DNA from: Rugalucina vietnamica
Taxonomy: Eukaryota; Mollusca; Bivalvia; Lucinida; Lucinidae
Length of the DNA stretch: 64,000 nt
Reading direction: 5' to 3'
NCBI GenBank assembly: GCA_964017185.1
Contig: OZ024873.1
Span: 43,076,760-43,140,759, forward strand
Of the stretch, positions 8,021 through 64,000 are shown one piece after another. Both the position numbers and the translations under genes were made by a program. Under the pieces are notes generated by a model. It saw nothing but the letters and a program-made list of their open reading frames with translations. It searched no databases and was not told where the DNA came from. How positions within the stretch are numbered: the stretch's first letter is position 1; each line of letters starts with the position of its first letter.

Positions 8021-8495
8021 CCGTTTCAGTTACAACCGTTAGTATCAACATTATAACACTAAGCGTTGCAGTTGCAACCGTTCGTGTCAACAATTTAACT
8101 GCAACCGTTAGTGGCAACAAGTTAAAACTAAGCATAGCAGTTTCAAACGTAAATGGCAACACGTTAAAACTAAGCATTGCTGTTACAACCGTTAGCGTCA
8201 ACACGTTAAAACCAATCGTTGCAGTTACAACTGTTATTGTCAACTTTATTTCACTAAGTGTTGCAGTTGCAACCGTTAGTGTAAACACGTTAAAACTATG
8301 CGTTACAGTTGCAACCTTTAGTGTCAACATAGCATTGCAGTTGCAACCGTAAGTGTCAATATATTAACACTAAGCGTTGCAGTTGCACTCGTTAGTGTCA
8401 ACATGTTCACACTAAGCTTTGCAGTTGCAATCGTTATTGTCAACACGTTAAAACTAAAGGTTGCAGATACAACCGTTCGTGTCAACATTATAACA
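8021..8495 (+). repeat. 42-bp minisatellite, block 1
   Basis: Degenerate tandem array. The consensus monomer, in order, is GTTGCAGTTGCAACC, GTTAGTGTCAAC, ATGTTAACACTAAGC (42 bp). Because 42 is 14 codons, frames stay open and generate apparent ORFs on both strands; these are not genes. The last 9 bp (ATTATAACA, 8487-8495) are the left target duplication of the LINE that follows. Confidence 0.95.
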
Positions 8496-12385: not shown

Positions 12386-12388
12386 ACA

Positions 12389-13759
12389 CTAAGTGTAGCA
12401 GTTGCACCTGTTAATGTCAACACCTTTACACTAAGCGTTGCAGTTGCAACCGTTAGCGTCATCACGTTTAAACTAATCATTGCAATTACAACCGTTATTG
12501 TCAACTTTATTACACTAAGCGTTGCAGTTGCAACCGTTAGTGTAAACACGTTAAAACCATGCCTTTAGTGTCAACATGTTAAAGCTAAGCATTGCAGTTG
12601 CAACCGTTTATGTCAACAGGTCGTTTCAGTTACAACCGTAGTGTCAAGACGTTAAACCTGTGCGTTGCAATATAACACTAATCGTTGCAGTTGCAACCGT
12701 TTATGTCAACATGTGAACACTAAGCTTTGCAATTTCAGTGTCAACATGTTAACACTTAGCAAAGTAGTTGCAACCATCAGTGTCAATATGTTAACACTAA
12801 GCGTTGCAGTTGCAACCGTTAGTGTCAACATTTTAACACTAAACGTTCCAGGTGACACCAATAGTGTCAACATATTAACACTTAGTGTTGCAGTTACAAC
12901 CGTTTGTGTAAACATGTTAACACTAAACGTTGCAGTTGCCACCGTCAGTGTCAACACGATAACATTAAGCGGTGCAGTTGCAAATGTCATAGTCAACATG
13001 TTAACACTAAGTGTAGCAGTTGCAACCTTAAGTTTCAACATGTTAACACTAAGAGTTAATTTCAACACGCTTACAGTAAGCATTGCAGTTGCAACCGTTT
13101 ATGTCAACATATTAACACTAAGCGTTGCAGTTGCATACGTTTGTGTCAACATGTTAACACTAAGCGTTGCAGTTGCAACCGTTAATGGCAAAACGTTAAC
13201 ATTAAGCATTGCATTTGCAACCGTTAGTGGCAACACGTTAAAACTAAGAGCTGCAGTTTCAACCGTTAGTGTCAATACTATAACACTAAGCGTTGCAGTT
13301 GCAGCCGTTAGTGGCAACATGTTATCACTAAGCGTTGCAGTTGCAACCGTTATTATAAACATGTTAACACTAAGCAATGCAGTTGCCACCGTTAGTGGCA
13401 ACATGTCAACACTAAGCATTGCAGTTGCCACCGGTAGAGGCAACACGTTAAAACTAAGCGTTGCAGTTACAACCCTTAGCGTCAACAAGTTAATACTAAG
13501 CGTTGCAGTTACAACCGTTAGTGTCAACATTATAATACTAAGTGATGCAGTTGCTACAGTTTTTGTCAAGACGTTAAAACTATGCGTTGCAGTTGCAACC
13601 GAGTGTCAACAATATAACACTAAGCGTTGCAGTTGCAAATGTCATAGTCAACATGTTAACACTAAGTTAAGCAGTTGCAACCTTTAGTTTCAACATGTTA
13701 ACACTAAGAGTTAATGTCAACACGCTTACAGTAAGCGTTGCAGTTGCATACGTTTGTGT
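12389..13759 (+). repeat. 42-bp minisatellite, block 2, with a 613-bp higher-order repeat
   Basis: Same monomer and orientation as block 1. Variant monomers recur at a 613-bp period: the rare GCATACGTTTGTGT variant occurs at 13133-13146 and again at 13746-13759, and the sequence after the first occurrence reappears after the hAT insertion at 44077. The 340-codon plus-strand and 125-156-codon minus-strand open frames here only translate the repeat. Confidence 0.95.
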
Positions 13760-42816: not shown

Positions 42817-44045
42817 ATACATGAATAAATAATTAAATAAAAATAATACAACTGAATGCTTACAGTACAAACTGGTCCATGAGTTTAACCGCGACGATGC
42901 GATTGTCACGGGTACCCACAATGTGCATTTGAATGGGAAAAACACGAGTTTTCTTTCATTCGAAATCGTGTTGTTTTTTTTTTTTACCGTCATCAAAGCC
43001 ACACATTTTGTATTTCTTTTTTTTTCATATTATTTCATAGTCGAAGTTTTGAGTTCATAAATTTTTAAGACAATTTATGATCAAATTTTATGGTTGCCCT
43101 TAGGCTAAAGTTACACAGGTAATTTTACGGACAGAGGCGCCAAGTAAATCGTAAATCACCGGAAAGAACCGAAGATGATTTACCTGTACCACTAATCCCC
43201 TAAGCTGATAATACGATAAGACGCGCTGAGGAGACTTTTTCCACATGGAAGTTCGGATCCGCCAAATTTAAGCATCCGGACGTTCGCTAAAAATCAATAT
43301 GTCCATTATTAAGGTAATTTTCCATTATTATAAAATAAAAAAAAAAAAAAAAAAAAAAAAACACAATATTTTAAGAAACCAAGGTATTAAATACGAATTT
43401 CTTAACATGTTGGTCACTAACGTTTAAGAGGTAAACGGGACAATGCATGTCACGGGGAAGCGACAATAAACAAAGAAAGGATTAAAAGTGATAATTGGCC
43501 TCTGATGTTTTCTTTTGGAAACAATTTTATTTACACTTCTCAAATTTAAAAAATAATAATTATACAGACCGCCGCCCAGCATAATTACATGTCAGATGAT
43601 TAATAGATATGTTCTGGGATTAAATAAAACAACTATGCTTTACTATGATCTTAATTTGACAAACCAAATATGCGGATTCTTACGCTGATCCGTTTATGCA
43701 GAGAAGAAACAAATAAATTTATAATACTAGTACAATTAAATTTTCTACAAGTATGACGTGACTAAATTTGTTTGCTGACGCTCCAGTTCGACAAAATTGG
43801 AACTCAGTGAATGTTCGTAATTTTTTGAAAATGAGTTAGTTTTGAGTAATGCTAGTTTCTGCGTCACAACGGAATCAACGCCAAGCTCAGCAGCTCTTGG
43901 TCATGAACGTTCTTTCAAGGGAACACTCGATTAACATACATGTGAATGTATACGTAATACATGTACTATGATCTGTTTCCCGACAGAAAGAAATGCGAAC
44001 GTTCGAACCATCCGGATGTTTGTTTCCGAACGTCCGAACCTTAAA

Positions 44046-44068
44046 TCGGACACCAAATGACATCCCTA
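44046..44068 (-). repeat. Right terminal inverted repeat of the hAT-like element
   Basis: Ends TGACATCCCTA and is immediately followed by the right copy of the GTTTGTGT duplication. Confidence 0.75.
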
Positions 44069-44076
44069 GTTTGTGT

Positions 44077-45122
44077 CAACATGTTAACACTAAGCGTTGC
44101 AGTTGCAACCGTTAATGGCAAAACGTTAACATTAAGCAATGAATTTGCAACCGTTAGTGGCAACACGTTAAAACTAAGAGTTGCAGTTTCAACCGTTAGT
44201 GTCAATAATATAACACTAAGCGTTGCAGTTGCAGCCGTTAGTGGCAACATGTTATCACTAAGCGTTGCAGTTGCAACCGTTATTATAAACATGTTAACAC
44301 TAAGCAATGCAGTTGCCACCGTTAGTGGCAACATGTCAACACTAAGCATTGCAGTTGCTACCGGTAGAGGCAACACGTTAAAACTAAGCGTTGCAGTTAC
44401 AACCCTTAGCGTCAACAAGTTAATACTAAGCGTTGCAGTTACAACTGTTAGTGTCAACATTATAACACTAAGTGATGCAGTTGCTACAGTTTTTGTCAAG
44501 ACGTTAAAACTATGCGTTGTAGTTGCAACCGAGTGTCAACAATATAACACCAAGCGTTGCAGTTGCAACCGTTACTGTCAACATTGTAACACTAAGCGTT
44601 GCAGTTACAACCGTTAGGGACAACACGTTGAAACTAAGCGACGCAGTTACAACTGCTAGTGTCAACACGTTAAAACCAACCGTTTCAGTTACTACCGTTA
44701 GTGTCAACATAATAACACTATACGTTGCAGTTGCAACCGTAAGTGTCAACATGTTAATACTAAGCGTTGCAGTTGCAACCGTTAGTGTCAAGACATTAAC
44801 AGTATAACAGTGTTGCAGTTGCAACCATCAGTGTCAACATGTTAGCAGTTGCCACCGTTAGTGGCAACACGTTAGCGTTGCAGTTGCCACCGTTAGTGGC
44901 AACACGTTAAAACTCAGCGTTGCAGTTACAATCTTTTACGTCAACACGTTAATAATAAGCGTTGCAGTTGGAACCGCTAGTGTCAACATTATAACACTGA
45001 GCGTGGCAGTTGCAACCGTTAGTGTCAACAATATAACAATAACCGTTGCAGTTGCAACCGTTCGTGTCAACTTTATAAAACTAAGTGTTACAGTTGTAGT
45101 CGTTAATGTCAACACGTTAACA
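44077..45122 (+). repeat. 42-bp minisatellite, block 3a (forward orientation)
   Basis: Resumes exactly in phase after the hAT-like element. Bases 44077 to about 44545 repeat 13147-13615 with only a few per cent differences, so they complete the second copy of the 613-bp higher-order repeat. Confidence 0.95.
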
Positions 45123-46575
45123 CACTTAATATAAACATGTTGACATTAACGGTTGCAACTGCCACGCTCAGTGCTATAATGTTGTCACTAACTGTTCCAA
45201 CTGCAACGCTTATTATTAACGTGTTGAAGTAAAGGATTGTAACTGCAAAGCTTACTTTTATCGTGTTACCATTAAGTGTTATAATGTTGACACTAAAGGA
45301 TGTAACTGTAACGCTTAGTGTTAACGTGTTGACAATAACGGTTGCAACTGCAGCGGTTAGTGTAAAACGGTTGCAACAGCAACGCTCTGTTCTAATGTGT
45401 TGCCACTTACGGTTGCAACTGCAATGCTTAGTGTTAACATGTTGACATTAACGGTTGCAACTGCAACCCTTTGCCACCAACGGTTGCAACTGCAACGCTT
45501 AGTGTTAACATGTTGACATTAACGGTTGCAACTGCAACGCTTAGTGTTTTAATGTTGACACTAACGGTTGCAACTGCAATGCTTAGTTTTGGTTTAAACA
45601 TATTTTATTTGAATTATTTACATACATTTCTTTTCATAGACATATACATTTACAAACATACAAACTGGGATTTGAACGAAAGCATAGCTTATTAAGTTCA
45701 TCTCCCCATGCTTAGTTTTAACATGTTGACACTAGCGGTTGCAAGTGCAACACTTAGTGTAAACGTGTTGACATTAACGGTTGCAACTGCTACACTTAGT
45801 TTTATTTTGTTGACTCTAACTGTTGTAACTGCAACGCATAGTTGTAACGTGTTGACACTAACGGTTGCAACTGCAACGCTTAGTGTTATAATGTTGACAC
45901 TAACGGTTGTAAATACAACGCTTAGTTTTAACGTGTTCAAGCTAACGGTCGTAACTGCAACGCTTAGCTTTAACGTGTTCAAGCTAACGGTCGTAACTGC
46001 AACGCTTAGCTTTAACGTGTTGACACTAACGGTTGCAACTGCAACGCTTAGTGAAAACGTGTTGCCACTAACGGTCGCAACTGTAACGCGTAGTTTTAAC
46101 ATGTTGAAACTAACGGCTGCAACTGCAACGATTAGTGTTAATATGTTGACATAAATGGCTGCAACTGCAACGCTTAGTGTTATAATGTTGACACTAACTG
46201 TTGTAACTGCAACATGTAGTTTTAACATGTTGACACCTAACTGCAACGCTTAGTGTTAACATGTTGGCACTAACAGTTGCAACTGCAACGCTATGTGTTA
46301 ATATGTTGACACTAACGGTTGCAACAGCAACGCTTAGTGTTAACATGTTGACACTTACGGTTGCTTCTGCAACGCTTAGTGTTCTAATGTTGACAGTAAT
46401 GGTTGCAACTGCAACGCTTAGTGTAATTATGTTGTCACTAGCGGTTGTAACTGCAACGCATAGTTTTAACGTGTTGACACTAACGGTTGCAAATGCAACG
46501 CTTAGTGTTATAACTAACTGCAACGCTTTATTTTAACATGTTGATGCTAAAGCTTATAACTACAACGCTTAGTTT
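45123..46575 (-). repeat. 42-bp minisatellite, block 3b (reverse orientation)
   Basis: Monomers read GTTAACATGTTGACAC, TAACGGTTGCAACTGC, AACGCTTA on the plus strand, the reverse complement of blocks 1, 2 and 3a. The switch lies near 45122 and makes a large inverted repeat with block 3a. Interrupted by a LINE tail at 45591-45707. Confidence 0.93.
45591..45707 (-). mobile_element. 117-bp LINE 3'-end fragment with a 12-bp target duplication
   Basis: Flanked by ATGCTTAGTTTT at 45579-45590 and 45708-45719. The minus strand has the AT-rich 3' end of a LINE, including AATAAAATATG, and ends GTTTAAACC. Extreme 5' truncation during target-primed reverse transcription explains the length. Confidence 0.7.
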
Positions 46576-46745
46576 AATCCGGTAGAAAAAAGCTGAACTC
46601 AGAGAGGACCTGGAATTGAGTTCTAAAGTTTTTTTCTTTACTGAATCTTGTTTAGCAGACCTTGCCCTTGAAGAATCCAAGTGATGCCACTTTGGCATCA
46701 TTGAGCGTTTTGATATATTCAAGATGGTGTCCAAGATGGAAGCCA
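46576..46745 (+). repeat. Left terminal inverted repeat (13.1-kb element)
   Basis: Pairs with 59511-59669. A second direct copy of most of it follows at 46773-46918 (period 173 bp). Confidence 0.75.
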
Positions 46746-46929
46746 GAAATAGCAAAAATCAATATTTCGCATCAGAGAGGACCTGGAATTAAGTTCTAAA
46801 GTGTTTTTCTTTACTGAATCTTGTTAAGCAGACCTAGCCTTTTAAGAATCCAAGTGATGCCACTTTGGCATAATTGAGCATTTTGATATATTCAAGATAG
46901 TATCCAAAATGGAAGCCAGAAATAGCAAA

Positions 46930-47110
46930 TATCAATATTTTTACATATTAGTTGGCCTCCCAAGCCATCAAAATATTTTTCTGTTGGCATTTTTGAGTAC
47001 ATTTTGGCATCCATGCTAAATGTGTTCCTTGATGTGTAACAATACACGCTAGGGTGGATGCCAAGTCTGAAAATGCCCCGGAGCCCCAAAAGTAGGTCAA
47101 AGGTCAACTA
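46930..47110 (-). repeat. Internal inverted repeat, left arm
   Basis: The reverse complement shares TTTGACCTA, GGCATCCACCC, CATGTCAAGGAA-like and GTACTCAAAAATGCCAACA blocks with 51640-51830, in the same order. Confidence 0.6.
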
Positions 47111-48128
47111 AGTGCAAAATTTCATATATTTCAGCATATCAGCAATATCTTATGTTATATTTTCAATTAATTTGCCTAAATTACATCTAGTACTTTTGTG
47201 AGGTTTAATAAGCAACAATTGTTACAACAAAGTGGTGCAGATTTAGGTCAAAGGTCACTTAAGTGCAAATATGCTTATTTTCATGCCCTTTTTCAATTGT
47301 CTGTATAAACATTAGTGCCAGTGGTATTCTGGTGGGGATAAAGTTATTTTAGGTACTTCTTGAGACTACTGTTTGATTTTGTAGTTTTTGTCATTTCAAG
47401 ATGGTGTTCAACATGGCTGTCAAAAACAAGAGAATGCTATAACAGTTGATGCATGTACAAGTAACTTACTCTCATCTAAAAATCTTTATACACATCCAAT
47501 TTTATTGTACTTTCTCATATTGTAATTGATCAGTTTTGTTAAACCAAGAAACATTTGATACATTTATGGTGTTGATCGCCATCAGTTAGTTTGGATTTAA
47601 AACTGATATTGATATACTTGAGGTTCAATGTCATGTAAGGACAAAATAATTATTTTTCATGTTGTTTTCTAATTTTGACCCTGAGAAAAGTGATGATTGA
47701 AAATAAGAGTATTGGTGGTAATCAGAGTCATTTCAAATGAGTCAGATTGATACTAATGTTTTATTTTTTACTTATCGTATAATGATGGTGGTCAAGATGG
47801 CCGCCACAACAGCAATAATTAAATATGTATTGGTAAAATTTTATTATCTTACGTATGGAGAACATAAGTAAACTTGATTTCGTGACTCCTCTGTTTAGGG
47901 CATATTCTCTTCAATAATTTAGTTGTCAATCTAATCTATTCTTCGAAACTGCCAGATCAATAAATAGTGTGTTAATGATAAATATAAACTGATTGAGAGA
48001 TTAAAACTGATGTTATTCATCATCCAGTGAAAGCTTAACATCTGAATTTCAGTTCTGATATTTACATTTTATTATCTATCAAGTATCTGTCTTTTAGTTC
48101 CAAAAACTGTTCCTAATATTCCGGATAT

Positions 48129-48565
48129 TTGACATTAAATCAGGCTTACCGGAATTTCGGAACAGCCCAAACGCTATTTTTCGAGCTTAACGTTATGGCA
48201 AAATGCGACCGACGTCACGCCAACATGAGCAAACAAACAACGATACTGGCTGACATTGACCAAACTCCAAGCCGCGGTGTTCCATTTCTGGACTTGAGTC
48301 CTCTAATTAAACAATATCGGAGAGCAACAGAGGTGTTGGCACTGTTGGGGAGTTTGGACATTGACGTGACTCCGCCATTAGGTTTGGTTTACGGTCTTGC
48401 TATATGGTTTGTCAGCAGAGTGATCAAGAGCAAAACATTTTCGTGAATTTAAAGCCTTTCGACATGAAAGATCTTTACGTTTTTGTGGAGACTCTGATGT
48501 CTGATGTAAAGATGTCTTGCACTGGTAGAGATATTGGCTTGGTTGTGCTGGCATTGAGATGCTAG
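48129..48565 (+). pseudogene. Unrecognised open segment with one apparent frameshift
   Basis: An ATG at 48129 opens 105 codons ending at 48446. Near 48395 an overlapping frame opens and stays open to a stop at 48563-48565, with a protein-like composition (FVNLKPFDMKDLYVF). The stretch is visibly more GC-rich than its neighbours. I do not recognise either part. It could be a decayed gene of the TIR element or a captured exon, or chance. Confidence 0.2.
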
Positions 48566-50166
48566 CTTTGACTTAGGCATTTGTACATACGTACATTCAT
48601 TAAGGTATCATATAGCAACTTGGAGAATTTTACACAATCGAAAATCGAGTATGGTACAAAATCATAAGATGTATGTTATTGCGTGATTAGCATAAATGCA
48701 TTACTTCATTGATTAAGCTCAGCTGCTGCTTTTTATCATTTGATGAGACTACTTACATTTATATTTTACTTATGTATTAAATAAACTTGTGTATGTTTGG
48801 TGTTTAGACAGATAAAATTGAATAGTCACTGCAGATTCAAACTAATGTCTGGTGAAGCTTTACTGAGGTCGCTGCTCATTCATTAATTTAAAACCTTAAA
48901 CATATTGTCAGTACACTATTTATGCAACATGAGCTGTACTAACAACAAATCCTGTTAATGAAAAATTATTCTCATCTACCAAGTGGGGAGTACTGCACAA
49001 GCTTTACTTGTGTCTGAAAGTACTGAGTTGCTTATGTCATCATGGCTCTCATAAATTGTACCAGCGTATCATATCTATGACACACATATCTATGATACTT
49101 CCTTGTCCCGAGACTTGGCCTAGGAATAGCATGGGTTAGGCAATTCTGGCATGACAATTGTTATCATCCCACCACTGCAAACACAAAGAGTGGTTTACTG
49201 CACTTATGCATGCTATCTTTGCTCGTATTAGAAGTACCAAGTTTCTTATTTGCATATTTTACCACAGCTCTAAAGCATTGTGTAAATGAGGTTACAAACA
49301 TCATTTTATTCACTCTTTGCTTACCTCAGCTTACTCAGAGGATAAAGTTTTGTCATTGTTATTTACTTTGACAAGCCCCGTAACTATTTATCCTGCTGAT
49401 GGCCTTAGCTGTTCCTTCTTGTTGAATTTGCAAAGATTCTTTCTTTCTGAATTTGATTAGAAATTACCCAAGTTGCACATTTTGATACACTCATTGGCCT
49501 TATTCGCAATACATCATTTCTGCAACTACCCAATGAATGATAAAATCATTACTTTTATTTATAGCGTTGTGAAATAGAAGTTGTTGCTAGTGACAAGAAT
49601 CCGAAAATCTCTCAGCAAAATTCAGCCCCAGTCTCGAAAACTAACATGTCAAAAATTAAGAATTTGGAGATTGCTCCTTTTTTTAAATAAGAAAGAAAAT
49701 TGGTGTATGCACTCTGGCCAAACCACATATGATAATTCAATTGTTTATATTGCTATCAAGGAGGTTTGAATGCACATTGATTTAAACAGGCTCAATGGAA
49801 TTTTACATGTATTTTCACTGACTAAACGTTTGCTTCTGAGCATATGTAGTTAAGTATTGTCTTCTTGGAACGCTGCAATACCTATCAATTTTGCAGTTTT
49901 ATTTGCTAAATAACAACTGACTGTGGAAAGCTATACCAAACTTAAAGTTATCACATAATCAAAAACGGACCAGCAAGTTTAGCATAACAATATTGTTCTC
50001 CATTATGATGGTAGCCATTTTGTACCCCATCTTCGAAAGTTCCATACTTTCCAAATGACTTAAATTCTGACTTAAATTCTGGAAAATGCTACAGTTCTGA
50101 AAATGGGCAAAATGAATAGTACATTCATATGATTTGTTTTGTCGTTTTGCTCGTTTGTTTTCTTGT

Positions 50167-50180
50167 GGGGGGGGGGGGGG
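50167..50180 (+). repeat. (G)14 homopolymer
   Basis: Fourteen G followed by TGGG; could form a G-quadruplex. Confidence 0.9.
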
Positions 50181-51109
50181 TGGGTCAATGGGTTGGGGCA
50201 ATCAATTACATTCAATAAGGAAAGTATTTTCACATCATGTACAAATGAAATGAACATCATAATGTATAATCTTTACAAAGGTTGATCAGATTAAGAAGAT
50301 TTATTTTTGTGGGTAATAGTGAAACATGCTTGTTTTAATAATTTAGTCTTGTTTTACTACACTTTCATCCTAAGCGAAACAGTGCGATGGGGTACAAATA
50401 GACCTGCAAGAACAGATTACTATAGTCCAGATTTTGTATTTCATACTTAAAACTAGACGGAATATTTCCATCGGTATTCCGTTAGACCTCTCCATACCGA
50501 CGGAAATGACATGTATTGAGCCCTTGGTCGAAAATGAAAAATCATCCAAGACGCCAAATAAATTGAAAATTAAGTTATGTTATATCTTTTATGACTGATA
50601 GGACTTAGTTTTTACATATTCTAGATGTAAAGATACGCAGATTCATAAAATACATCATGTTCTCTGTGGAAAATATCACATGCGTCTATAAATAGATAAG
50701 GGGAGACTACTGTAGAATACGGGACACAAAGTAGAAAATCGATTGCTTTTTGCAAATTAATTGAAATTTCTGCAGGCTTACCAGATGTTTACAAAAAGAT
50801 TTTTGCATTTTCTAACAAAACATACGAAAAATTCTAATAATTCTCACCAAATAAAGCAGCTATAAGCTTCTTACGAAATCCATAATCTGTTCGACCATAG
50901 TTTAAAGGTAACTAATGCTAAGCTGTCACGAGAGAGGAGCGAGGTCGCGAAGTGTATCGGAGTGCAGGTTAGCCAGCTGATCTAACTTAAAACTATCAAT
51001 GCCAAACAAGCACAGCAAGACCTCCTATCTCTGTCAGCTACTTTTACAACTGAAACGTTCCAGTAACTGAAATTGTGAATGCATTTTCAGGGTATACCCT
51101 GTTTTGAAT

Positions 51110-51830
51110 TGATGACCTCATCTGACCTTTGGCCTCAATGGCTAACATGCATTATTTTCTAGATAAGCCTTAAATCATCTCAGATATGTACTACAAATCC
51201 TTTGGGTAACTTTCTTTCAGCCAGCCCATGATTTTGTGATAGAATTGCATTATTTAGTAATCATTATAGGTTTTGATATTTTTGCACTCATATGACCTTT
51301 GACCTAATTCTGTGACCCAGAGGCAGTAACAAACTTGGAATATACTCGTATGAGTTTAAGCATTTGTCAATGAATAAAATGAGCATATGTTGCTTTAAGT
51401 CAGTCCATGTTTGAAATGCAAATTACTTTATTATTGTAACGGGTGTTTGTTATTTTGCACGCATTTGACTTTTGACCTAATTCTGTCACCCAGGAGCATT
51501 AACAGTTTTGATACCCACCCCTATGTCTTTGGACACATGTCAAGGAATAACATAGGTACAAGTTACCTAAAATCACTCCATGATTTTCCAAAATAATAAT
51601 GTTTATTTTTATTTTTACAGATTTTTGATATTTTGCACTCATTTGAACTTTGACCTAGTTTTGCGACCCAGGGTCATTTACAGACCTGGCATCCACCCGT
51701 ACGAGTTCGGGCACATGTCAAGGAATATTATGAGCATAGGTAGAATAATGTACTCAAAAATGCCAACAAAACGAAAACTAAGCGACTTTTATGGATTTGG
51801 ACTGCCAAGTATATATGGGACAAATCTATG
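51110..51830 (+). repeat. Internal degenerate tandem repeats and right inverted arm
   Basis: About four diverged copies of a roughly 180-bp unit keyed by TTTGACCTA...GACCCAGG...CATGTCAA (near 51110, 51290, 51470, 51650). The last copy pairs with 46930-47110 on the opposite strand. Confidence 0.55.
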
Positions 51831-54464
51831 ATTTGATTTATTGGTTTGCTCTTGAGTAAGGCATGGATAAAGAAGTTATGAAACATAACAGTTCATAACA
51901 AGTCATAGCATTTTTGTAGCTTTAAGAAACTAAGATGGCATCCAAGATGGCGGTCATGATAAGAAGCACAAAAAGGTACAAGTAGGCAAAGATCAGGAAA
52001 AGGCGCAATCAGAAAAAGATTCCCACTCCAAAAACCGAGGTGGGAAAAAAACAAACTAACAATCAGGTACTTATACCATGAAACAATCGTAAGCCGAATG
52101 GGCAGCTATTTTGCCAATAGGTGGCCACTCAGTTACCTTAACTTAACTAAAAATATGAAAACATACATAAGGCGCCAACAGCACAAAAAATTTTTAAACA
52201 CCAAGACATAAAACAAAAAGAACCACCACAGAAGTATCGACTTGGAACGATCAGTAACACAAAGTTGCACAAAAACACAATTTTACCTGTTCACATTTGA
52301 GATGTTGTGCTAATGTAAACATTTTGTGTAAGGCATATCATTTTAAGAAATGGAGGCATGTCTTTTTCACCAATTATCTAATTACAATATGCAGGATGGC
52401 ATCCAAGATGGTAGTCAAAACATCAAAACTGTATTTCATGTATTTTTACGCTTGTATTAACTGTGCAATACTTCATTTCTTTGGCAACCTGCATAATAAT
52501 ATACATGTCATCCATTTGTGTATCATATCAGTCCAGTCTAATTTTGGCCATAATCCATCCACTGCTAAGAGCTTAGATGTTTTCGTAAATTTTGCCAAGT
52601 AGTAGCTCATATATGAGCGCGGATCAGACAAAAGAGGCCTGGGCAGTAAAGTACTTGTATGCAATTAAAATTTAAAAACCAAATAAATTTGAAATATTTG
52701 GCATGCTCTGATATTTATGCCAAACTGCTTTGATATTGTAAAACAATCCAAGACGCATATAATATCTTATTAATAATATCTTATGAAAGATAGATATTAG
52801 TATCACGCATATTGCCATGGCAATCCTTGCGCCATAAGGAATACCCTCATTTTAAAAAAAAGGTACGCTCTTTGTTGTACATATGCGTGTGCATTTGTGC
52901 CTATTTCATAATCTGAACGGTGGTATAGGTGTTGAATTTCAAGGAACACATAGACGTTTGAGAATTTCAGTCATAGATTCTTTTCAGTACAATGGTATAA
53001 AGACGTTAACATCATCAATGTCAAAACGCCATCAATATTTTTATGGCGTCATGTTTAGATTGCTACACACCTTTTGATTCTCATATATTTATGCAGATAA
53101 TCTCTTCAAACTTTCAGGAAATACTCAACTAAACCTGGTCTTTCACATTGTTATTTATATATATATATATTAATTTTGAATTTTTAGGACATAAGACCCT
53201 TCTTGTCAGATCTAGGCCTATATATATTAAGCTACGCAATTGTAAGACGACAACAGTAGCCCATACTCTGAATTGAGAGGTTGGTGTTTGAGCCCGCCAC
53301 CACAGAGTTGTGCATGCCATGTTAACCTTTCCATGATGCTGGTTATAATAGTACTGGTTCATACCAAAGAAATATAAGCTCCATCTCAACCTGACTAATT
53401 GTTTATTTAATGGATTGTTAAACTACAATACAAGCAAACCAAACAAATATGTATCTTACGAAATACAATTTTACATAATGTAAAGCACCATTATGTGTCT
53501 TCCAGTCATGAAGAAGAAAAATGGTAAAACTAGCCATTATAATGATTGTTCAGACCAACATAATGGTATGAAAGATAAATGTTAAAATCGCATGGAAACA
53601 TTTTTAAAACACAACTGTCTGTTCATTTATGCATACATCGTTGTCTTGGCAAGAACGAAGATTGTACAACCAAGTCCTACGCAGCAGCAATGCTCATTCT
53701 TGAACCATAAAAGATAATGTGACGTCAGTGTCACCCAGAATCGGAAGTAAATAACCATCCTGAAATAACTTGATCACAATGCCATTACCAATGACATAAC
53801 AATAGCTGACTGTGTCGCATCCCGAAAGGGCATGCACACTAAATTAAATCAGGTAAGGATCAATTGCTTTATTTATTCCCCATTGTTTCTCTACATCAAT
53901 CATGGCAGACCTCTCGCTCACTGGTGATGACTTTACCACAATAATGCTTAGCCTGTGAGTCAGGTACTGAAAACATAACAGTACAAATGCATCTGTGACA
54001 TCTATGGTGGCTGAAATCCTTTTCAGATTTTCAAGTGCTGCCAACACCATTCGCTGCGTACGGGTGCCCCTTCTTCTTGGGTGCTTTTCATATCACTTCT
54101 TTCAATGATAATACCCTTGCAAACTTCAAAAAGTACATGTCATCTTCTCCCTTTTAAACTATCAACTTAGAATTCTGATTGTCTGCTACACTATTTTACT
54201 AATACAGCTATAAGTTTAATCAGCTACTGTTGGTTTTCTATCACTGTCTGTACAACACTTTGTGGGAACAATAATTGTATGTCTTGTGACATTGTTGTGC
54301 TAAAATTTAATCTACCAAATACCAGGTAAACATCATTCACTTTTGGGTTAGTTTAGAAATTGTCCACATTGTACTTTGACAGATCATTAGTAGACCAGGT
54401 CAGGTCAGATTATCTGCTACTGTAACATGTAATCAGTACTACCTGTTGCCATGCGGTGCAGATG
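51831..54464. other. Interior of the 13.1-kb element, right of the internal repeats
   Basis: No supportable gene. AAGATGG-type motifs occur near 51935 and 52400, and a short TA run lies near 53157. Confidence 0.5.
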
Positions 54465-54660
54465 GGGCTCGTTAGCCTTGGACGGCAACCCATCTAGGAG
54501 TTTGCTAGTTCTCTACACAAAAACCTAGCTGGGCAGGGGGAACTCATTAGTTTTGGTTGACAGTCCTCCTAGGAGTTTACAGGTCTCTAAACAAAACCTA
54601 TGAAAGGGTAGATGGAGCCCTTCAGCTGTGGCCAGCAATTCATCTAGGAAAAGGTAATTC
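54465..54660 (+). repeat. 5'-UTR tandem repeats of the LINE (about 72 bp x 3)
   Basis: Each copy has a GGNGCTC/GGAACTC-like start, a CATCTAGGAG-type middle and a TCTCTAAACAAAACCTA-type end. Promoter-bearing 5' tandem monomers are known in several LINE groups. Confidence 0.55.
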
Positions 54661-55349
54661 CAAAATAAAACCTGTGTGTCTGGATATGCCTGGTCCAGAT
54701 ATGCAAAGACTGTTTCGGTAGACGGAGCGGAAGAAATCATCAGATTCAACGGTTCGGAAAGCGATACAGCAACATGTTGTGGAACATGCAGAGCGTGATA
54801 AGGCACTATAGATGTTACGGTCATCCACTGCATCCAAACCTAACTCCAGACGTCTTGACCTGTGTCTTGCCTCTGGGCACAGTTGGGTGAGGACGAGTGA
54901 GTGAGGTTGACGTTGCGCACCTCTTCCTCACTATAATCCAATTGCATAGCGCACGTCATCTTATTTCTCAACACACAAGCACTTGCATACACAACAATTT
55001 CATCACACATGCACCCACATACCTACAAAAGTCCTGTGGCGATGGGCGAGCGGCGAAGCAGCAGGTGTAGGACACACTGGGAGCTGTAGTTGCAGACCTG
55101 CACGCAGGCGGCTCAGTTCTATATGGTCGTTTTCCGTGAGGAGAAGCAGTAAGCGAAATTCGGCAGTCGGCTGAGCGACTGAGCAGACCTATTTAGGACC
55201 GCACTGCTCACCCCCGTAGCATGGGGAAGGGGCTAGAAAAGGTGCCCTAAACAATTGCCTGCTTCAAACCCCCTGGCTGGTTAACCGCGATCAGCGGGGA
55301 TCCCTTTTCAGCGGTCGAAAAAAATAAGAAAAAAACAAAGATAATCCCT

Positions 55350-58300
55350 TTGAGGATTGGCGCATGGAATGTGCGAACATTGATGGACAGTGCTGGGTCA
55401 AATAGACCGCAGCGTAGAACGGCCCTTGTGGGCAGAGAACTTGGGAGGTATGGAATTCAGATAGCAGCTCTGAGTGAGACTCGGTTAGCAGATGTTGGGG
55501 AGATCAAAGAAGTTGGTGCTGGATACACCTTCTTCTGGAGTGGACGCAAAAGTGAAGAGAGGCGTGAAGCAGGAGTTGGCTTTGCCATTAAAACAGAACT
55601 TGTTGGTAAGCTTTCAGGATTGCCAAAAGGCATCAATGACCGCCTAATGACATTGAGACTTCCTCTGTCAGGCAATAAACATGCAACTATTGTCAGTGCC
55701 TATGCACCCACGATGACCAATCCAGATGAGGTTAAAGACAAGTTCTATAATGACTTAGATGACATTATTTCTGCTACACCCCGTACAGACAAACTTATCC
55801 TTCTTGGAGACTTTAATGCCAGAGTTGGTACAGACCATCAGACCTGGGAAGGAGTTATAGGTCCAGAAGGTGTTGGAAAGTGCAACAGCAATGGTCTCTT
55901 GCTTCTAAGGAAGTGTGCTGAACATGATCTTCTAATCACCAACACAGTCTTTCGTCTACCTAACAGAAATAAAACATCCTGGATGCATCCCCGTTCCAAA
56001 CATTGGCATCTCATAGACTATGTTATAGTGCGAAGAACAGATAGGCAGGATGTCAGAGTGACAAAGACTATGTGTGGTGCAGACTGCTGGACAGACCATA
56101 GACTGGTTGTCAGCAAACTCAACCTTAGAATCCAGCCTGCGAGGCGACCTCAAGGCAAGAAAGCTGCTAAAAGACTGGATGTCTCAAAGCTGAATCAAGA
56201 CAGCATGCGACAAGCTTTCTTAACAGACATTTGCAACCAACTGGATGCAATCAATCTCAGTTCAGAGAACCCCGAAGAAAACTGGACAGTCTTCCATAAA
56301 ACAGTTCATTCTTCAGCTGCTACTACTTTAGGACATCCATCTCGCAAACATCAAGACTGGTTTGATGAGAATGATGACGAAATTCAGAAGCTTCTTGAAG
56401 AAAAACACAGATTGCACAAGGCACATCAAGATGATACTAGCTCAGTATCCAAGAAAGCAGCCTACAGCAACGTTTGTAAGACAGTCCAGACCAAGCTTAG
56501 GGACATGCAAGATTCCTGGCTGAGGAAGAAAACAGAAGAAATTCAGTCTTTTGCAGACAGAAAGGACATGAAGAAATTTCATGATGCACTGAAAACCATT
56601 TATGGCCCTAAGAGTTCTGGAGCCACCACATTACTCAGTGCAGATGGAAACACTCTTCTCACAGACAAAGAGGCTATCTTGAAAAGGTGGGCAGAACATT
56701 TCAATAGTGTGCTAAATCGACCATCAAGCATCAATGAGGATGCAATTGACAGACTGCCACAGATAGAGTGCAATGTTCTGTTAGATGAATTTCCAACCGT
56801 CATGGAAACAAGAAAAGCAGTTCAACAACTGTCTTCTGGCAAAGCTCCAGGTGCAGATGCAATTCCTGCAGAGGTTTATAAGGCCGGGGGGCTACCCATG
56901 GCAGAGAAACTGACTGAGCTGTTTCACTGTATGTGGAGGAAGGAGGCCATCCCACAAGAATTTAAGGATGCATCCATAATCCACCTATACAAGCGGAAAG
57001 GAAATCCACAAGTCTGTGATAACCACAGAGGCATTTCCCTCCTATCGATTGCTGGGAAGATACTAGCAAAAATTCTGTTGAACCGCCTGAATGTTCATCT
57101 TGATCAGAAGGGACTTATCCCAGAAAGTCAATGTGGATTCAGAAAGGACAGGGGGACGATAGACATGATCTTCACAGCAAGACAGCTTCAGGAGAAATGC
57201 CAAGAGCAGAATGTAGATCTATACATGACGTTTGTCGACCTCACCAAAGCGTTTGACACAGTAAGTCGTGATGGACTGTGGAAAATCATGGCCAAGTTTG
57301 GCTGTCCACCCAGATTCATAGCAATGGTGCGGCAATTTCATGATGGCATGCAGGCACGTGTGCAAAATGATGGAGAGTTCTCTGAACCCTTTGAGGTAAC
57401 AAATGGGGTCAAACAGGGCTGTGTTATGGCACCAACACTGTTCAGCATGATGTTTTCTGCCATGCTCATGGATGCTTTTCAGGACAGTGACACTGGTTTT
57501 CCAATCAGGTACCGTTTTGATGGCAATATATTCAACCTTAGAAGGTTGCAAGCCAAAACTAAGGTGCAGACCGATGTGCTAGATGAGCTCCTCTATGCAG
57601 ATGATATGGATAAGAATGCCAGCTCAGAGGCAAAAATGCAAAGAGCCATGGATCAAGTCTCACAGTCATGTGATAACTATGATCTCACAATCAGCACAAA
57701 AAAGACAGAGGTTGTACACCAGCCAGCACCTGGAAAACCGTACAATGAACCAACCATCACTGTGAATGGAGAAAAACTGAAAGTTGTTGATAAATTCACC
57801 TACCTGGGAAGCACTCTTTCCAGAGCAGTGCACATTGATGATGAGGTCACTGCAAGAATTGCAAAAGCCAGTGTGGCATTCGGAAGACTCCGTGCAAATG
57901 TCTGGGAGCGAAATGGAATCAAGCTTGACACCAAGCTGAAAGTCTACAAGGCTGTGGTACTTCCAACCCTCTTGTATGCATGTGAGACCTGGACAGTATA
58001 CCAGCGTCATGCAAAGAGACTTAACCATTTCCACTTAAGCTGTTTGAGAAAGCTGTTAAAAATCAAGTGGCAAGACAAGATCCCAGACACAGAGGTCCTG
58101 AAGAAAGCAGGGATGCAAAGCATGCATACTGTCTTAAAGCTAGCACAGCTAAGGTGGACCGGCCATGTTATAAGAATGCCTGATGAGCGACTTCCAAAGA
58201 AAGTCTTCTATGGAGAACTACAAGAGGGAAAGCGCTCTCAAGGTGGCCAGAAGAAACGCTACAAAGACACCCTGAAAGCCTCTCTGAAGGATTTTGACAT

Positions 58301-58580
58301 ACCAATTGGGTCTTGGGAACAGACTGCACAGGAGCGATCAAAGTGGCGAGGTCTCATCAACAAAGGAGCAGCTCTCCATGAAAAAAAGAGAATCTGTGAA
58401 GCTGAAAGAAAGCGCAGAGAACGCAAAGCCAATACCAATGGGCCACCAGCTGATTCAATGACATTGACTTGCTCTACTTGCAACCGACAGTTTAGAGCTA
58501 GAATTGGCCTAGTCAGCCATCAAAGAACTCACCAACACACACAAACCTATTCAAGAAATAATGATGGTCTTTCTCATTAG
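55350..58580 (+). CDS. LINE polyprotein: AP endonuclease, reverse transcriptase, C2H2 finger
   Basis: An uninterrupted ORF. Endonuclease: WNVRT (N7), LSETR (E43), GDFNARVG (D154, N156) and TDHRLV (D249, H250), the full catalytic set. Reverse transcriptase: GKAPGADAIPAEVY (497-510), HRGISLL, QCGFRKDRGTIDM, FVDLTKAFDTV (D630), GVKQGCVMAPTLF and LLYADDMD (Y749-D752). The thumb/C-terminal region is basic, and a C2H2 finger closes it (C1041, C1044, H1057, H1061; CX2CX12HX3H). The codon at 55350 is TTG, not ATG. The frame is open back to 55251 with no ATG, and the first in-frame ATG (codon 12) lies after N7, so initiation must be non-AUG or unusual. All catalytic residues are present, so this copy may be active or very young. 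RTE-like placement is tentative. Confidence 0.88.
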   Translation: MRIGAWNVRTLMDSAGSNRPQRRTALVGRELGRYGIQIAALSETRLADVGEIKEVGAGYTFFWSGRKSEERREAGVGFAIKTELVGKLSGLPKGINDRLMTLRLPLSGNKHATIVSAYAPTMTNPDEVKDKFYNDLDDIISATPRTDKLILLGDFNARVGTDHQTWEGVIGPEGVGKCNSNGLLLLRKCAEHDLLITNTVFRLPNRNKTSWMHPRSKHWHLIDYVIVRRTDRQDVRVTKTMCGADCWTDHRLVVSKLNLRIQPARRPQGKKAAKRLDVSKLNQDSMRQAFLTDICNQLDAINLSSENPEENWTVFHKTVHSSAATTLGHPSRKHQDWFDENDDEIQKLLEEKHRLHKAHQDDTSSVSKKAAYSNVCKTVQTKLRDMQDSWLRKKTEEIQSFADRKDMKKFHDALKTIYGPKSSGATTLLSADGNTLLTDKEAILKRWAEHFNSVLNRPSSINEDAIDRLPQIECNVLLDEFPTVMETRKAVQQLSSGKAPGADAIPAEVYKAGGLPMAEKLTELFHCMWRKEAIPQEFKDASIIHLYKRKGNPQVCDNHRGISLLSIAGKILAKILLNRLNVHLDQKGLIPESQCGFRKDRGTIDMIFTARQLQEKCQEQNVDLYMTFVDLTKAFDTVSRDGLWKIMAKFGCPPRFIAMVRQFHDGMQARVQNDGEFSEPFEVTNGVKQGCVMAPTLFSMMFSAMLMDAFQDSDTGFPIRYRFDGNIFNLRRLQAKTKVQTDVLDELLYADDMDKNASSEAKMQRAMDQVSQSCDNYDLTISTKKTEVVHQPAPGKPYNEPTITVNGEKLKVVDKFTYLGSTLSRAVHIDDEVTARIAKASVAFGRLRANVWERNGIKLDTKLKVYKAVVLPTLLYACETWTVYQRHAKRLNHFHLSCLRKLLKIKWQDKIPDTEVLKKAGMQSMHTVLKLAQLRWTGHVIRMPDERLPKKVFYGELQEGKRSQGGQKKRYKDTLKASLKDFDIPIGSWEQTAQERSKWRGLINKGAALHEKKRICEAERKRRERKANTNGPPADSMTLTCSTCNRQFRARIGLVSHQRTHQHTQTYSRNNDGLSH

Positions 58581-58640
58581 TGAGAGACGAACCACCAGTA
58601 GACCAGTATATAAAATGACAGATCGAGTCATCTGATATAG

Positions 58641-59510
58641 AACAAATTATTTTATTTTTATTTGACCCACATATACTTTTGTTTGTGATATTTTCTTCGT
58701 CTTGCTTTGAATATAACCTGTATATATATCTGCAAATATCGAGGTTGTCTATAGTGCAAACTCATGTGCTAATGTGTTTATGCCTATGTCATATGACCTT
58801 GCCTGTTGTCCAATCACTCTAGTGTTGATTAAGATGGTAGCTACTGCTTCATTATTACCAACTGTAAGATCATTTATACTTCTGCTTGAGTTTCTACATC
58901 TTAAAAGTTTCATTATTAAAGCTTGTATGTTATTTGCTTTCAAACCGTTTCATTGTTTTTTGTACCTAGTTCGAGATCTTTATCAACACTCGCTATCTTT
59001 TCACCCATCCTTCCATCATCTTGAAATACACAATATTAAAATACAAACTTGCTCTATTATCCTTTATCTTGATAAGGCAAAATGTCTAGAGTAATGACTT
59101 TTAAGTGCTAAGTGTATTCAGTGTGGGAAAATGTTAAAACTCAATTCTAGGTCAAATTCGTTTTGCGCAAGAAATCATGGCTGCCTTCTTGAATGCCATC
59201 TTGAATATGAAAATCACTGCATCTTGATAAGGCAAACTAGCTTGAGCAATGGTTCTGAAAGTAAAAGTGCTAATTGTATGAATCAAAACTTGAAAGTAAA
59301 ACCAAAAACATGAAAAACCTTGACTTATTTCATCTATACAGTGTTTTATAAGAAAGCTGACAGCCATCTTGTGTCCTATCTTAAAAACCTGTGATAGAAT
59401 GTACATACCTACACAAATCTGATACCTATTCATCATTTGGCACTGAAATAACCACAGATTTAACAGATAAAAACAATCAGAGACCCATATTAAAGAATAT
59501 TTTATATTCT
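58641..59510. other. Right interior of the 13.1-kb element
   Basis: AT-rich, with no gene. It carries diverged inverted relatives of the terminal repeat near 59120-59240 and CCATCTT motifs (the AAGATGG motif on the minus strand) near 59190, 59360 and 59515. Confidence 0.5.
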
Positions 59511-59669
59511 GGCCGCCATCTTAAACGCCATCTTGAAAATACAAATATGCTCAATGATGCCAAGGTGGCATCATTCAGATTCTTCAAAGGCAATGTCTAC
59601 TGAACATGATTCAGTAAAGAAAAAAACTTTAGAACTCAATTCCAGGTCAAATTTGTTTTCTGCCGGACT
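59511..59669 (-). repeat. Right terminal inverted repeat (13.1-kb element)
   Basis: Reverse complement of 46576-46745 with scattered differences and a gap of about 13 bp near the tip. Confidence 0.75.
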
Positions 59670-59674
59670 AGTTT

Positions 59675-59720
59675 TAACGTGTTGCCATTAACGGTTGCAA
59701 CTGCAATTATTAGTGTTAAA
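59675..59720 (-). repeat. 42-bp minisatellite, block 4 (short, reverse orientation)
   Basis: About one monomer (TAACGTGTTGCCATTAACGG onwards) between the 13.1-kb element and the Gypsy-type element. It ends TTAGTGTTAA and is completed by CATGTTGACAC at 63667. Confidence 0.85.
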
Positions 59721-59728
59721 TGCATAAA

Positions 59729-60225
59729 TGCATTTATACTAGGTGGCTATGATTTTCATAGCTGTCGGTTCTCTCCCCAAGTTTTCGCCGTTGTATTTAC
59801 GACGGACGGCCTTCTTTCTCGTCGTATCAAAGTATACGTACCACTACCTTCGTATCTTAGAATACGTACTTTTTGATGACTCCGTACCTAAATTATAGTT
59901 TTTATTTTTCTTTTCGGACTCTAAAACTTCTAAATTTTGGAGAATCAATTATTAGGGATCTTAAACTTAAATTAATTTAATTTGCAAATATATTTGTAAA
60001 CATATCAAATAGTAAAATCAAATTTCAACTTCAAAAGCTTCTTCACTACTTCAACCCACATCCAGCGATACGAACCACACTAGCAATCACTTTTGTGGAG
60101 ATTGGTCACAGTGCGGATTGCATTGATCGCCAGCTTTAGGACAAAGCTTTATTTTTGCTGTTGTCCGATCGTCTGTCTGTCGGCTTGTGCGTCCGTCTGT
60201 CCGTCTCTACCCCTGGCCTACTACA
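59729..60225 (+). repeat. LTR piece, 3' portion (left side of the element)
   Basis: Ends CCTACTACA directly before the primer site. Its first 155 bp repeat at 63513-63667, but it lacks the TGTAGTAG start. Confidence 0.75.
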
Positions 60226-60226
60226 T

Positions 60227-60238
60227 TGGTGCCGTGAC
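60227..60238 (+). other. Primer binding site (tRNA-His)
   Basis: TGGTGCCGTGAC is complementary to GTCACGGCACCA, the 3' end of animal tRNA-His with CCA, starting 1 base after the LTR. Confidence 0.75.
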
Positions 60239-60451
60239 CAGGATGTGGTTAAATTGAAGTCAGTATTTGTGAAGCTCAAAATAAATAGGTTCAGTTATAA
60301 TCATTAATGTAAGGGTAAAATTTAAGTGTAGGAAATTACTACAGCTTACCCCACCCCATTCAGTAACAGTAAGGTTAAAGTTAATATCATAAATTAAAAC
60401 TTGTAAGGATTCTAACAATCAGAATTAAATTCCTAGGCCGTTCGTAGCAAA

Positions 60452-62457
60452 ATGCTTTCGTATTACGATGACTTTGATAGCCAGCAAGATCTTATAGATC
60501 TTTGTATCTCAAGTAGGGTTAGGGATGGAACCACCCAGACTATACCCCCCTCTTATACAAGGTCCAACACTTTAGGGGAAACAACACATGTGCCCTCGTT
60601 ACATACGAGTAGAGTTCATTTTGAACAGCCAAGTATGTCTACTTTATATGTAGATACCAATTTACCCAGCTACATGGATTCTCGTACTGATTCGAGGTAC
60701 TTCCTTTCTTCCCCGGGGCCATCGGGCCATGTATATGGGGCTTGTGCCCCTTCCCATTATGAGACACCTTACCACGACTTTAATGATCAAGGTTACCGAG
60801 CAGGAACATTTGGTAGATCAACGTCTGAATTTAATAGACCCCTACCCCAGTATATCCCAATCCCACGTCCAGCTGCCAATAGTCCATCGCGTGGTAGGGT
60901 TAAGGTGCTCGAACCTGAGACCTTTGATGGGTCAACATCGGGTGCCGAAATATCTGAATATTTGATCCATTTTGAACAAGTAGCAGACTGGAATCAATGG
61001 GATGACTCTCAGAAAGCAAAAATGCTGAAATTTAAGTTACGTGGTGAAGCTCAGAAGTTTGTTTCTACTTTGACCTACTTACAAGTGACAAATTATGCTA
61101 CCTTGAAATAATGCCTTATTCATAGATTCGATCCAATTGAAAGGGCCGTAACCTACCGCTGTGAATTCTTAACTCGGAAACGCGAGAAGAATGAGCTTTG
61201 CTCTGATTATGGCTATGCCTTACTCAGACTTGCACGGCATGCATACCCATACACACACCAGGATGATGATGATCTTGATGCAACTGTGTTAGATCAATTC
61301 ATTTCTGGCTTAGGGTCCTTAGAGCTTCAAAAGCATGTACAATTCCAGCATCCTGAAACTTTGTATGAAGCCATCTACTATGCGATGGAGTATACTTCAG
61401 TCAGTGAAATTCTTGATCAAACATCTCAATTTCATGAACCAGTTACTCCTGTTACACCATTACAACCAAAAGTAAACTCTGAAGAGCAGTTAACTTTCAC
61501 CCAAAAGCAATTAGAAGAGCTCATTAATCTGAGCATTGACATGGCATTAGCAGCTAAGAAAGAGTCAGATCAACAGGGAAATAACTCTGAAACAAATACC
61601 CCCACTGATAAGGTGCTCGCCTTGAGGCCTACTGCTTCTGATGAAAATCAATCAAAGAGAAAGCTTTCTGGAAATTCAGAGAATATAACTATGCAAGAGA
61701 GTTCAGACATGAGAATTTGTAATTCCAGTGACTCTGAATCAGAATTGTTGATGTTGAGAAACACTCATGAAGAGTTAAAAACCCAACAATTAGTAACGGG
61801 TTCAAATACAGTCAGTCAAAATTTAGGGTTAGATATGTCAACATCACCGCAATTGACAAACAGTTTGAACCTCATGACACAGTTTGACTGCCAGATTAAT
61901 AATTTCGGCATTGTGTCGTTTCGGCGAAATGTCTTTTCGGCGAAGTGGTTTTCGGCAAAGTGTCGTGCACCGATTAATAATGGGCCCGAGAGTCTGTGGC
62001 CGGGAAATAGTTTGATTCCCGTGGACCAAGATTGTAATGTCCTAACTCATGGCTTTGCATGTCAAAGGTCATTAACTGATCTTGGTGCCCCTGAGCAGAC
62101 CCTGGTAGTAGAATATGAGCATTCGGATCCCCAAATGCAGACTCCGGTACTTATGACCAGAGAAAAGATAATGAAATAAAATCTAATGGACCTGAAAGTA
62201 ACTCAGGCACCCTAGAACAGGAAAATGAAATTGAAATTGCTAAAGAATGCAATGAAGCCTTTGGAGTAGATCCTATAAATGAGCAGCCACCCCTTGAGTA
62301 TACAAGCAAATCAATTGAGACTGAAACTTACTTTGAAAAAAAGGATTCTGTGAACTCAGTTCCACACACTTGTTACAATGTCAATGGGAAAGTAGGACCC
62401 GTTAAGGGTAGAAAATTATTCCTACTTCATGGGAAATCAACCCAAGCTCAAACATAA
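60452..62457 (+). pseudogene. gag: Gag polyprotein of the Gypsy-type element, nonsense and frameshift
   Basis: The ATG at 60452 follows the primer site by about 210 bp. Residues 1-145 are Ser/Tyr/Pro-rich and low in complexity. From residue 151, VLEPETFDGSTSGAEISEYL opens a Retrotrans_gag-type capsid region (EQVADWNQWDD, KFKLRGEAQKF) that continues past a stop at 61109-61111 (TAA where CAA/Gln is likely) through RFDPIERAVTYRCEF and LLRLARHAYP to LYEAIYYAMEYT. The same frame stays open to 62179; near 62150 a frame change leads to a further open stretch ending at 62457. No zinc knuckle or protease motif is visible, and pol is absent. A 78-bp in-frame insertion lies at 61904-61981. Confidence 0.75.
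61904..61981. mobile_element. 78-bp in-frame insertion with a 10-bp target duplication
   Basis: GATTAATAAT occurs at 61894-61903 and 61972-61981. Between them are four short TTTCGGC-led repeats (such as TTTCGGCGAAATGTC). The length is 26 codons, so the gag frame is kept. The element type is unknown; a 9-10 bp duplication would suit a Mutator-like element. Confidence 0.55.
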
Positions 62458-63219
62458 TCATAAAATTGAGCCATTTACAGTCAGACAAATATGACTTAAA
62501 TGCTTATCAGAATGTAACACGAGAAGTCTTATATAAATTTTCAATAAAATGACTAAATAAAAATTATTAAAATATACATAAAACGTTGGGAAAAAAATAC
62601 TTAAAGTTTGAAAATAGGCAAGTAATTGGCAGTGGTAAAGTTATGTTGCTGTCTATGGTTGAGAAGTTGGTCTATGGCTATGGTTTCTATGGAGAAGGAT
62701 GTTCTATTGGGTCAGTTCTGTCGATGGTTATGACATACTCCTGTCCATGGTTGTAGTTTGTTCCTGTCAATGGTTATGTACTACCAATGATGTGAACAAC
62801 TGGTTGCTCTAAAGACGACGTATGGTTTACAATCTACATATAAAACTTCATACGTTATGCAGCTGTTTATGGTTCTTAATCACCGAAGTCTATGAGATGT
62901 ACCGAGGATGATACTTTAATACCTGTTGAGAGCAGTTAGACGTCTATTACTGTGTGCAGTATTGTTGACTGTCGTCTGGGCCTATGAACACGAGTCGTAT
63001 TACCGGGATGGATCTATGATCAACTTGGCCGAGACCTAAAGGCTATTGCGCGATGATGACCAACTAGCTATGGATGATGAAACAGATGGATACCTTTTGC
63101 TATTTTGACATTTTTGAGCTTGTGTTGTTCATTTATTTAGTGACATTTATGACCAGTTTGTTTTCATGCTTTAATTTAAAATATTCGCTTTGCTCATATT
63201 TTTTCAAAGGATGGAGGAA
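62458..63219. other. Non-coding 3' internal region of the Gypsy-type element
   Basis: No supportable ORF. CTGTCNATGGTT recurs four times between 62651 and 62776, and a purine tract ends the region at 63206-63219. Confidence 0.5.
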
Positions 63220-63667
63220 TGTAGTAGAAGTGCCTTCATAGGGTCTTCATTAATTGACATTTCTTGAAAGCTTATACTTGTACATTTATGTGAAGTTGCT
63301 CCCCTTGAAGCAATTAAGTTGCTTCCCTTGAATTAAATGCAGGTTTAGAGTTTTAAGTCACCATTCTTTCTCCATCTTTTGAAAGTAACTTTTGTAAATA
63401 AAATTATTTCATTTTATGAGCAAATTATTGAATATTTTAATATTTTTCATTTGTTTGACATATTTCATAAAGTCAAAATTATCTCTTTTTGTACACCTTT
63501 TTGTAATGAAAATGCATTTATACTAGGTGGCTATGATTTTCATAGCTGTCGGTTCTCTCCCCAAGTTTTCGCCGTTGTATTTACGACGGACGGTCTTCTT
63601 TCTCGTCGTATCAAAGTATACGTACCACTACCTTCGTATCTTAGAATTCGAACTTTTTGCTCCGTAC
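63220..63667 (+). repeat. LTR piece, 5' portion (right side of the element)
   Basis: Starts TGTAGTAG right after the purine tract. Its last 155 bp match 59729-59887; it stops where the minisatellite resumes and lacks the CTACTACA end. Confidence 0.75.
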
Positions 63668-64000
63668 ATGTTGACACTATCGGTTTGATCTGCAATGCTT
63701 AGTGTTAATATGTTTACATTAACGTTTGCAACAGAAACGCTTAATGTTAACACGTGACACTAACAGTTGCAACTGCAATGCTCAGTGTTAATACATATAC
63801 ACTAACGGTTGCAACCGCAACGCTAAGTATTAACATTTTGACATCTGCAAAGCGTAGTGTTAACATTTTAGCATTAACGGTTGCAACTGCAACGCTTCGT
63901 GTTAACATGTTGACAAAAACTGTTGCAACCGCAATGTTTAGTGTTACCATATTAACACTAACGGTTGCAACTGCAGCGCCAAGTATTAATATGTTGACAA
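63668..64000 (-). repeat. 42-bp minisatellite, block 5 (reverse orientation, runs off the window)
   Basis: Continues the orientation of blocks 3b and 4 to the window edge, with more divergent monomers. Confidence 0.93.

Follow-up and report, generated by a model that had tools for sequence, protein, structure and literature searches.

Yeast Ty elements are known to be captured at chromosomal double-strand breaks. In the mouse zygote, double-strand breaks repaired by RMDR have also received pieces of retroelements, with lengths of, e.g., 327, 357 and 950 bp among the examples in the accessible part of the report (PMC4516963). As for the processed pseudogenes of the human retrovirus HERV-W, which are made by LINE-1, according to the available portion of the source their 780-nt LTRs are cut to R-U5 (nt 256-780) and U3-R (nt 1-326), and they carry a poly(A) tail, target duplications of 5-15 bp and the TT/AAAA motif (PMC5016936). 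Finally, Ty3/gypsy-like LTR retrotransposons are a third point of comparison, with LTRs of the TG...CA type, a tRNA primer site and a polypurine tract (PPT).

The locus described here is a 3.94-kb piece of an LTR retroelement (window 59726-63667) flanked on both sides by a 42-bp minisatellite, the window being the whole 64,000-nt stretch analysed (C5:43076760-43140759 of a 1.09-Gb assembly whose size and content mark it as eukaryotic). As in the HERV-W processed pseudogenes, its 5' LTR is R-U5, its 3' LTR is U3-R, and the internal order is normal; unlike them, it has neither a tail nor a 5-15 bp duplication, and it goes back to one founder in a minisatellite that was multiplied as a passenger. 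With break capture, both RMDR and yeast Ty, it shares the absence of integrase ends, truncation at both ends, little or no target duplication and possible short microhomology, although the RMDR pieces are short in the accessible part of that report, whereas here the span runs from LTR to LTR. The resemblance to Ty3/gypsy-like elements includes the TG...CA LTRs, a 4-bp target-site duplication (TSD) of solo LTRs, the tRNA primer site, the PPT and a weak Ty3_capsid match; in contrast to them, pol is not recognised, gag is interrupted, and DNA searches returned no full-length copy. The titles and abstract openings returned by a narrow and partial literature search named no R-U5...U3-R copy in an invertebrate.

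The retroelement is decayed and lacks the outer parts of its LTRs, and it reads, along the forward strand, as R-U5, primer binding site (PBS), gag remnant, PPT and U3-R, set in phase in the minisatellite. Its left partial LTR opens with a repeated block (59726-59887, R if the insertion is read as an RNA copy), which equals nt 291-466 of an 805-bp solo LTR minus 14 nt, and continues with the 3' remainder or U5 (59888-60225) up to CTACTACA, at whose bases the solo LTRs also end before their TSDs. The last base of CTACTACA is 60225; one base further, TGGTGCCGTGACCAGGAT begins, and the PBS occupies 60227-60244, as the complement of a tRNA-His 3' end (TGG plus 15 nt). This assignment comes from a tRNA 3'-end pattern that has 15 nt in common with the PBS and was found at 18 genomic places (reversed control, 0), and from ARAGORN, which called tRNA-His in two of the three loci given to it. 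The gag remnant (60452-62179) is interrupted by an in-frame stop (61109-61111) and by a 61-bp MITE remnant derived from a small inverted-repeat element (61904-61964, no strand assigned), at which point the C2 and C7 copies contain 311 bp more; its weak matches to Ty3_capsid (E 0.0032) and SCAN (E 0.0037) are both below the curated cut-off. Only short ORFs occur in the internal remainder (62180-63205), and no pol domain was found in the retroelement ORFs scanned. The PPT AAAGGATGGAGGAA (63206-63219) abuts the start of the right partial LTR, which consists of a 5' portion or U3 (63220-63509), beginning with TGTAGTAG at 63220, and of the second repeated block or R (63510-63667), 4 nt shorter than the left one. 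An Rfam search gave no match at gathering scores, and RNA-fold z-scores were unremarkable (-1.3 for the repeated block, -1.9 for the block plus U5).

Two solo LTRs with 4-bp TSDs identify TGTAGTAG and CTACTACA, a perfect inverted pair internal to the insertion, as the true LTR ends, as an earlier note on this DNA had supposed. Both solo LTRs contain U3, R and U5 in one piece. The one on contig C14 (TSD TTAG) measures 805 bp, close to the 790 bp or so anticipated, and the one on C16 (TSD CAAC) reaches 885 bp because of an insert with a long T-run in its U3. The C14 solo LTR is 97% identical to the right partial LTR (425 of 439) and 95% identical to the left one (487 of 515 columns, with gaps). 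TG...CA ends with short target duplications are thus a property of the solo LTRs and not of the window insertion itself. In solo-LTR coordinates the left part begins at nt 291 and the right part stops at nt 466, in agreement with the claim that only a 3' portion is present on the left and only a 5' portion on the right; what is missing is nt 1-290 of the 5' LTR and nt 467-805 (the outer 339 nt) of the 3' LTR. The overlap of the two parts, put at 155 bp beforehand, is a direct repeat (59726-59887 versus 63510-63667) of 95.7% identity (162 columns, a 4-nt gap among them), and the solo LTRs place it within the LTR, so that it is not an unrelated repeat flanking many loci, nor are the LTR ends misassigned. 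Fourteen nucleotides of the solo LTRs are absent from both partial LTRs, the right of which is short of a further 4 nt; a diverged LTR on C11 has a similar version of the 14 nt. When the C2, C7 and C13 copies are taken into account, parsimony places one substitution and the 4-nt loss between the two blocks at the root. Diverged LTR fragments are also found elsewhere in the genome, e.g., on C8, C10 and C11 and at C5:51.2M.

These coordinates also decide the reading of the earlier note, that the element is integrated in circularly permuted form, for which it named as sources a one-LTR circle opened within the LTR or a head-to-tail tandem. Nothing is permuted, because LTR, PBS, gag, PPT and LTR follow one another as in any ordinary element, and the absences are confined to the outer parts of the two LTRs. 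Furthermore, a circle opened once predicts zero overlap, whereas about 160 bp are repeated, so a single opening is unsupported. Repeat annotation can easily mistake an RNA-shaped or end-trimmed copy for a permuted circle or the reverse, and at this locus the two can be told apart.

The joins with the minisatellite are equally informative. The left array ends (59669-59725, forward strand) at unit position 42 plus an ambiguous extra ATG, with an additional AAATGCAT at 59718-59725, so that the junction reads as a tandem AAATGCAT-AAATGCAT (59718-59733); the right array (63668-64000, forward strand, running beyond the window) restarts at unit position 1, its first AC overlapping the end of R. The in-phase joining of the array flanks that had been pointed out is therefore borne out. 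At each of the nine right junctions known, CTCCGTAC passes into ATGTTGACAC (with one substitution in C12). None of these nine has a poly(A) tail, no LTR terminus lies at either array junction, and a target duplication of 5-15 bp is lacking, the flanks overlapping imperfectly by no more than 3-5 nt (ATG/ACATG); the joins are compatible with about 2 bp of microhomology. The window insertion thus combines the absence of integrase ends, truncation and microhomology or blunt joins, features that are not unique to break-captured reverse transcripts. The view that ordinary integration fails to explain the structure is supported by the absence of outer LTR parts on both sides and by the in-phase array. 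It is highly improbable that a standard provirus once stood in the array and that two deletions subsequently removed its outer LTR parts: deletions are common and recombination in a repetitive array could give the phase match, but both would have to stop at the array in phase, with the array resuming at unit position 1, and a fuller LTR at the insertion site is found in none of the ten copies known.

These ten copies were located with internal DNA (window 60300-61300), for which all ten of ten scored candidates lie within the same array composite, on nine contigs (two on C5 and one each on C16, C14, C12, C17, C13, C2, C7 and C4). The left array-to-R junction is identical in nine of them. In the C7 copy an RT-like ORF, putatively Penelope-like, is inserted no more than 2 nt from the array/R junction, and array lies beyond the insert, which rules this copy out as an independent left junction. 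Nine of the ten likewise keep the right junction, 4-nt loss included; the C13 copy has lost its right half, and the C4 copy is split by a 14-kb stretch. Pairwise, the ten copies differ at 2-18 of 1446-1695 compared sites (window 59726-61420; the C14 copy has 1455 bases in this comparison, owing to an insertion in its U5). A left flank of at least about 1.07 kb is common to seven copies and the right array to nine, with alignments at 96.7-99.9%; the C5:42.59M and C16 copies are 99.6% identical over 19 kb, element included. Independent insertions at the same LTR point are rejected, as the copies share flanks and junctions, and the check for further openings at this LTR position that the earlier note proposed yields ten loci with one junction and shared flanks. 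The shared junctions and flanking DNA make the ten loci descendants of one event: they go back to one founder insertion, multiplied as passengers with the surrounding DNA and not self-multiplied.

A search with the 3' part gave 12 rows, ten of which come from nine of the composite copies (C2 appears as two pieces and C13 is not among them), the other two being one fragment of about 300 bp on C16, split by a stretch of about 957 bp. Apart from this fragment, the DNA searches found the internal DNA of this LTR family only in passenger copies of one non-canonical insertion. The same searches bear on a circle or tandem as the source. The same order would result if the array had captured a piece of a head-to-tail tandem, or a one-LTR circle that had been copied a little beyond one full turn, and copying past one turn allows any overlap; nevertheless, the repeated block of about 160 bp is not what a simple opening yields, DNA searches of the genome detected the internal DNA neither in tandem nor as a full-length copy, all ten gag-part matches belong to the composite, and the 3' part adds only the C16 fragment. 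We consider such a source unlikely.

The best explanation overall, which we hold to be about evenly balanced between right and wrong, is that an integrase-independent R-to-R reverse transcript entered a break in the array and was then amplified as a passenger. The starting molecule would be a reverse transcript of the element RNA extending from R to R; a chromosome break in the array would have received it and been joined without integrase; and a larger mobile or duplicating repeat bearing the array would subsequently have carried the founder over nine assembled contigs. In favour of an RNA copy, the truncations leave a block shared by both ends, as in the HERV-W processed pseudogenes. The match of R to RNA ends is not independent evidence, as R is defined solely by the repeated block. 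Several observations speak against an RNA copy. Poly(A) is missing, and neither AATAAA nor ATTAAA lies shortly before the right boundary; the two such signals of the C14 solo LTR (nt 113 and nt 178) both precede the left boundary. A TATA-like TTATAC occurs at nt 299, 8 nt in from the left boundary (others lie at nt 53 and 472), and transcription starting from it would begin within the repeated block. In addition, none of the loci compared shows the array at this position without the insert.

The missing tail and AATAAA and the internal TTATAC are better suited by a trimmed DNA copy, in which a double-stranded linear cDNA with full LTRs would have lost about 290 bp and about 340 bp at its ends before end-joining placed it in an array break. 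Such a molecule need not match the RNA ends, the lack of poly(A) is natural, the possible 2 bp or so of microhomology at the array junctions fits, and truncated captured retroelement pieces with short microhomology are described at mouse-zygote breaks in the accessible part of the report (PMC4516963). Nonetheless, in a simple simulation with uniform random fragments of an LTR-internal-LTR molecule, only 6.2% had both ends in LTRs and 3.1% showed an overlap, values that limited end resection would raise. We regard this origin as less likely than not, but as a serious rival.

Target-primed retroposition of the RNA by LINE-type machinery, with the tail lost or never present, would share the R-U5/U3-R layout described for HERV-W pseudogenes in the available portion of that paper (PMC5016936). 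LINEs with RT are present, and the one in the window (54399-58596, forward strand, with a 1076-aa ORF encoding endonuclease and RT and a 10-bp duplication AGTAGACCAG) lacks poly(A) on its right side, and a tail may therefore be dispensable here. Even so, the insertion has no poly(A) and its flanking overlap is at most an imperfect 3-5 nt, which leaves this route quite improbable. Returning to the R-to-R reverse transcript, we advance only tentatively its fullest version, in which RNA of an LTR element, bypassing the normal integration route of that element, was copied from R to R into a broken minisatellite with neither a tail nor a clear target duplication, and the resulting scar came to provide nearly all of the internal DNA of the family found in the genome via a minisatellite-bearing mobile repeat. 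If it is true that RNA ends map to both boundaries, the locus would be a tail-less analogue of the HERV-W pseudogenes, apparently in an invertebrate.

The DNA around the retroelement is itself composite. Comparison of copies delimits an element of about 8.9 kb without long ORFs in the array beside the retroelement (46578-59667, no strand assigned, a span that includes the LINE); its ends, TCCGGTAGAAAA / TTTTCTGCCGGA, are inverted, and a TAGTTTAA / TAGTTTTAA duplication flanks it. Its right-hand 1.07 kb or so occurs in seven copies and the whole was read in three (the window, C5:42.59M and C16); where it sits, the array is uninterrupted in the C2 and C13 copies and carries the RT-like insert instead in C7. 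The LINE belongs to the window copy only among the seven compared, being absent from the six others. Left of the inverted arrays, window 43300-44090 has at least 58 matches of 73-100% identity among the 40 candidates scored out of 962, so the host DNA belongs to a family of dispersed repeats. Similarity between the C16 copy and the window begins at about 41168. On the other side, the match of the C16, C17 and C14 copies to C5:42.59M stops about 5.8 kb past the right R block, after which the sequences differ, and in the C12 stretch past that block only the array matches.

Within 44069-46573 the 42-bp array flips its orientation at about 45124, forming a large imperfect inverted repeat, and further arrays lie at 8033-8499 and 12386-13759. 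Between them and the inverted repeat, a tandem repeat of about 3.4 kb occupies window 13782-40679, with several copies about 98-99.9% identical and containing A-runs. Elsewhere, a stretch that follows the array at the right end of the C7 copy also precedes the array shoulder in the left flank of the C16 copy, a hint that the host repeat may be arranged in tandem or as a circle.
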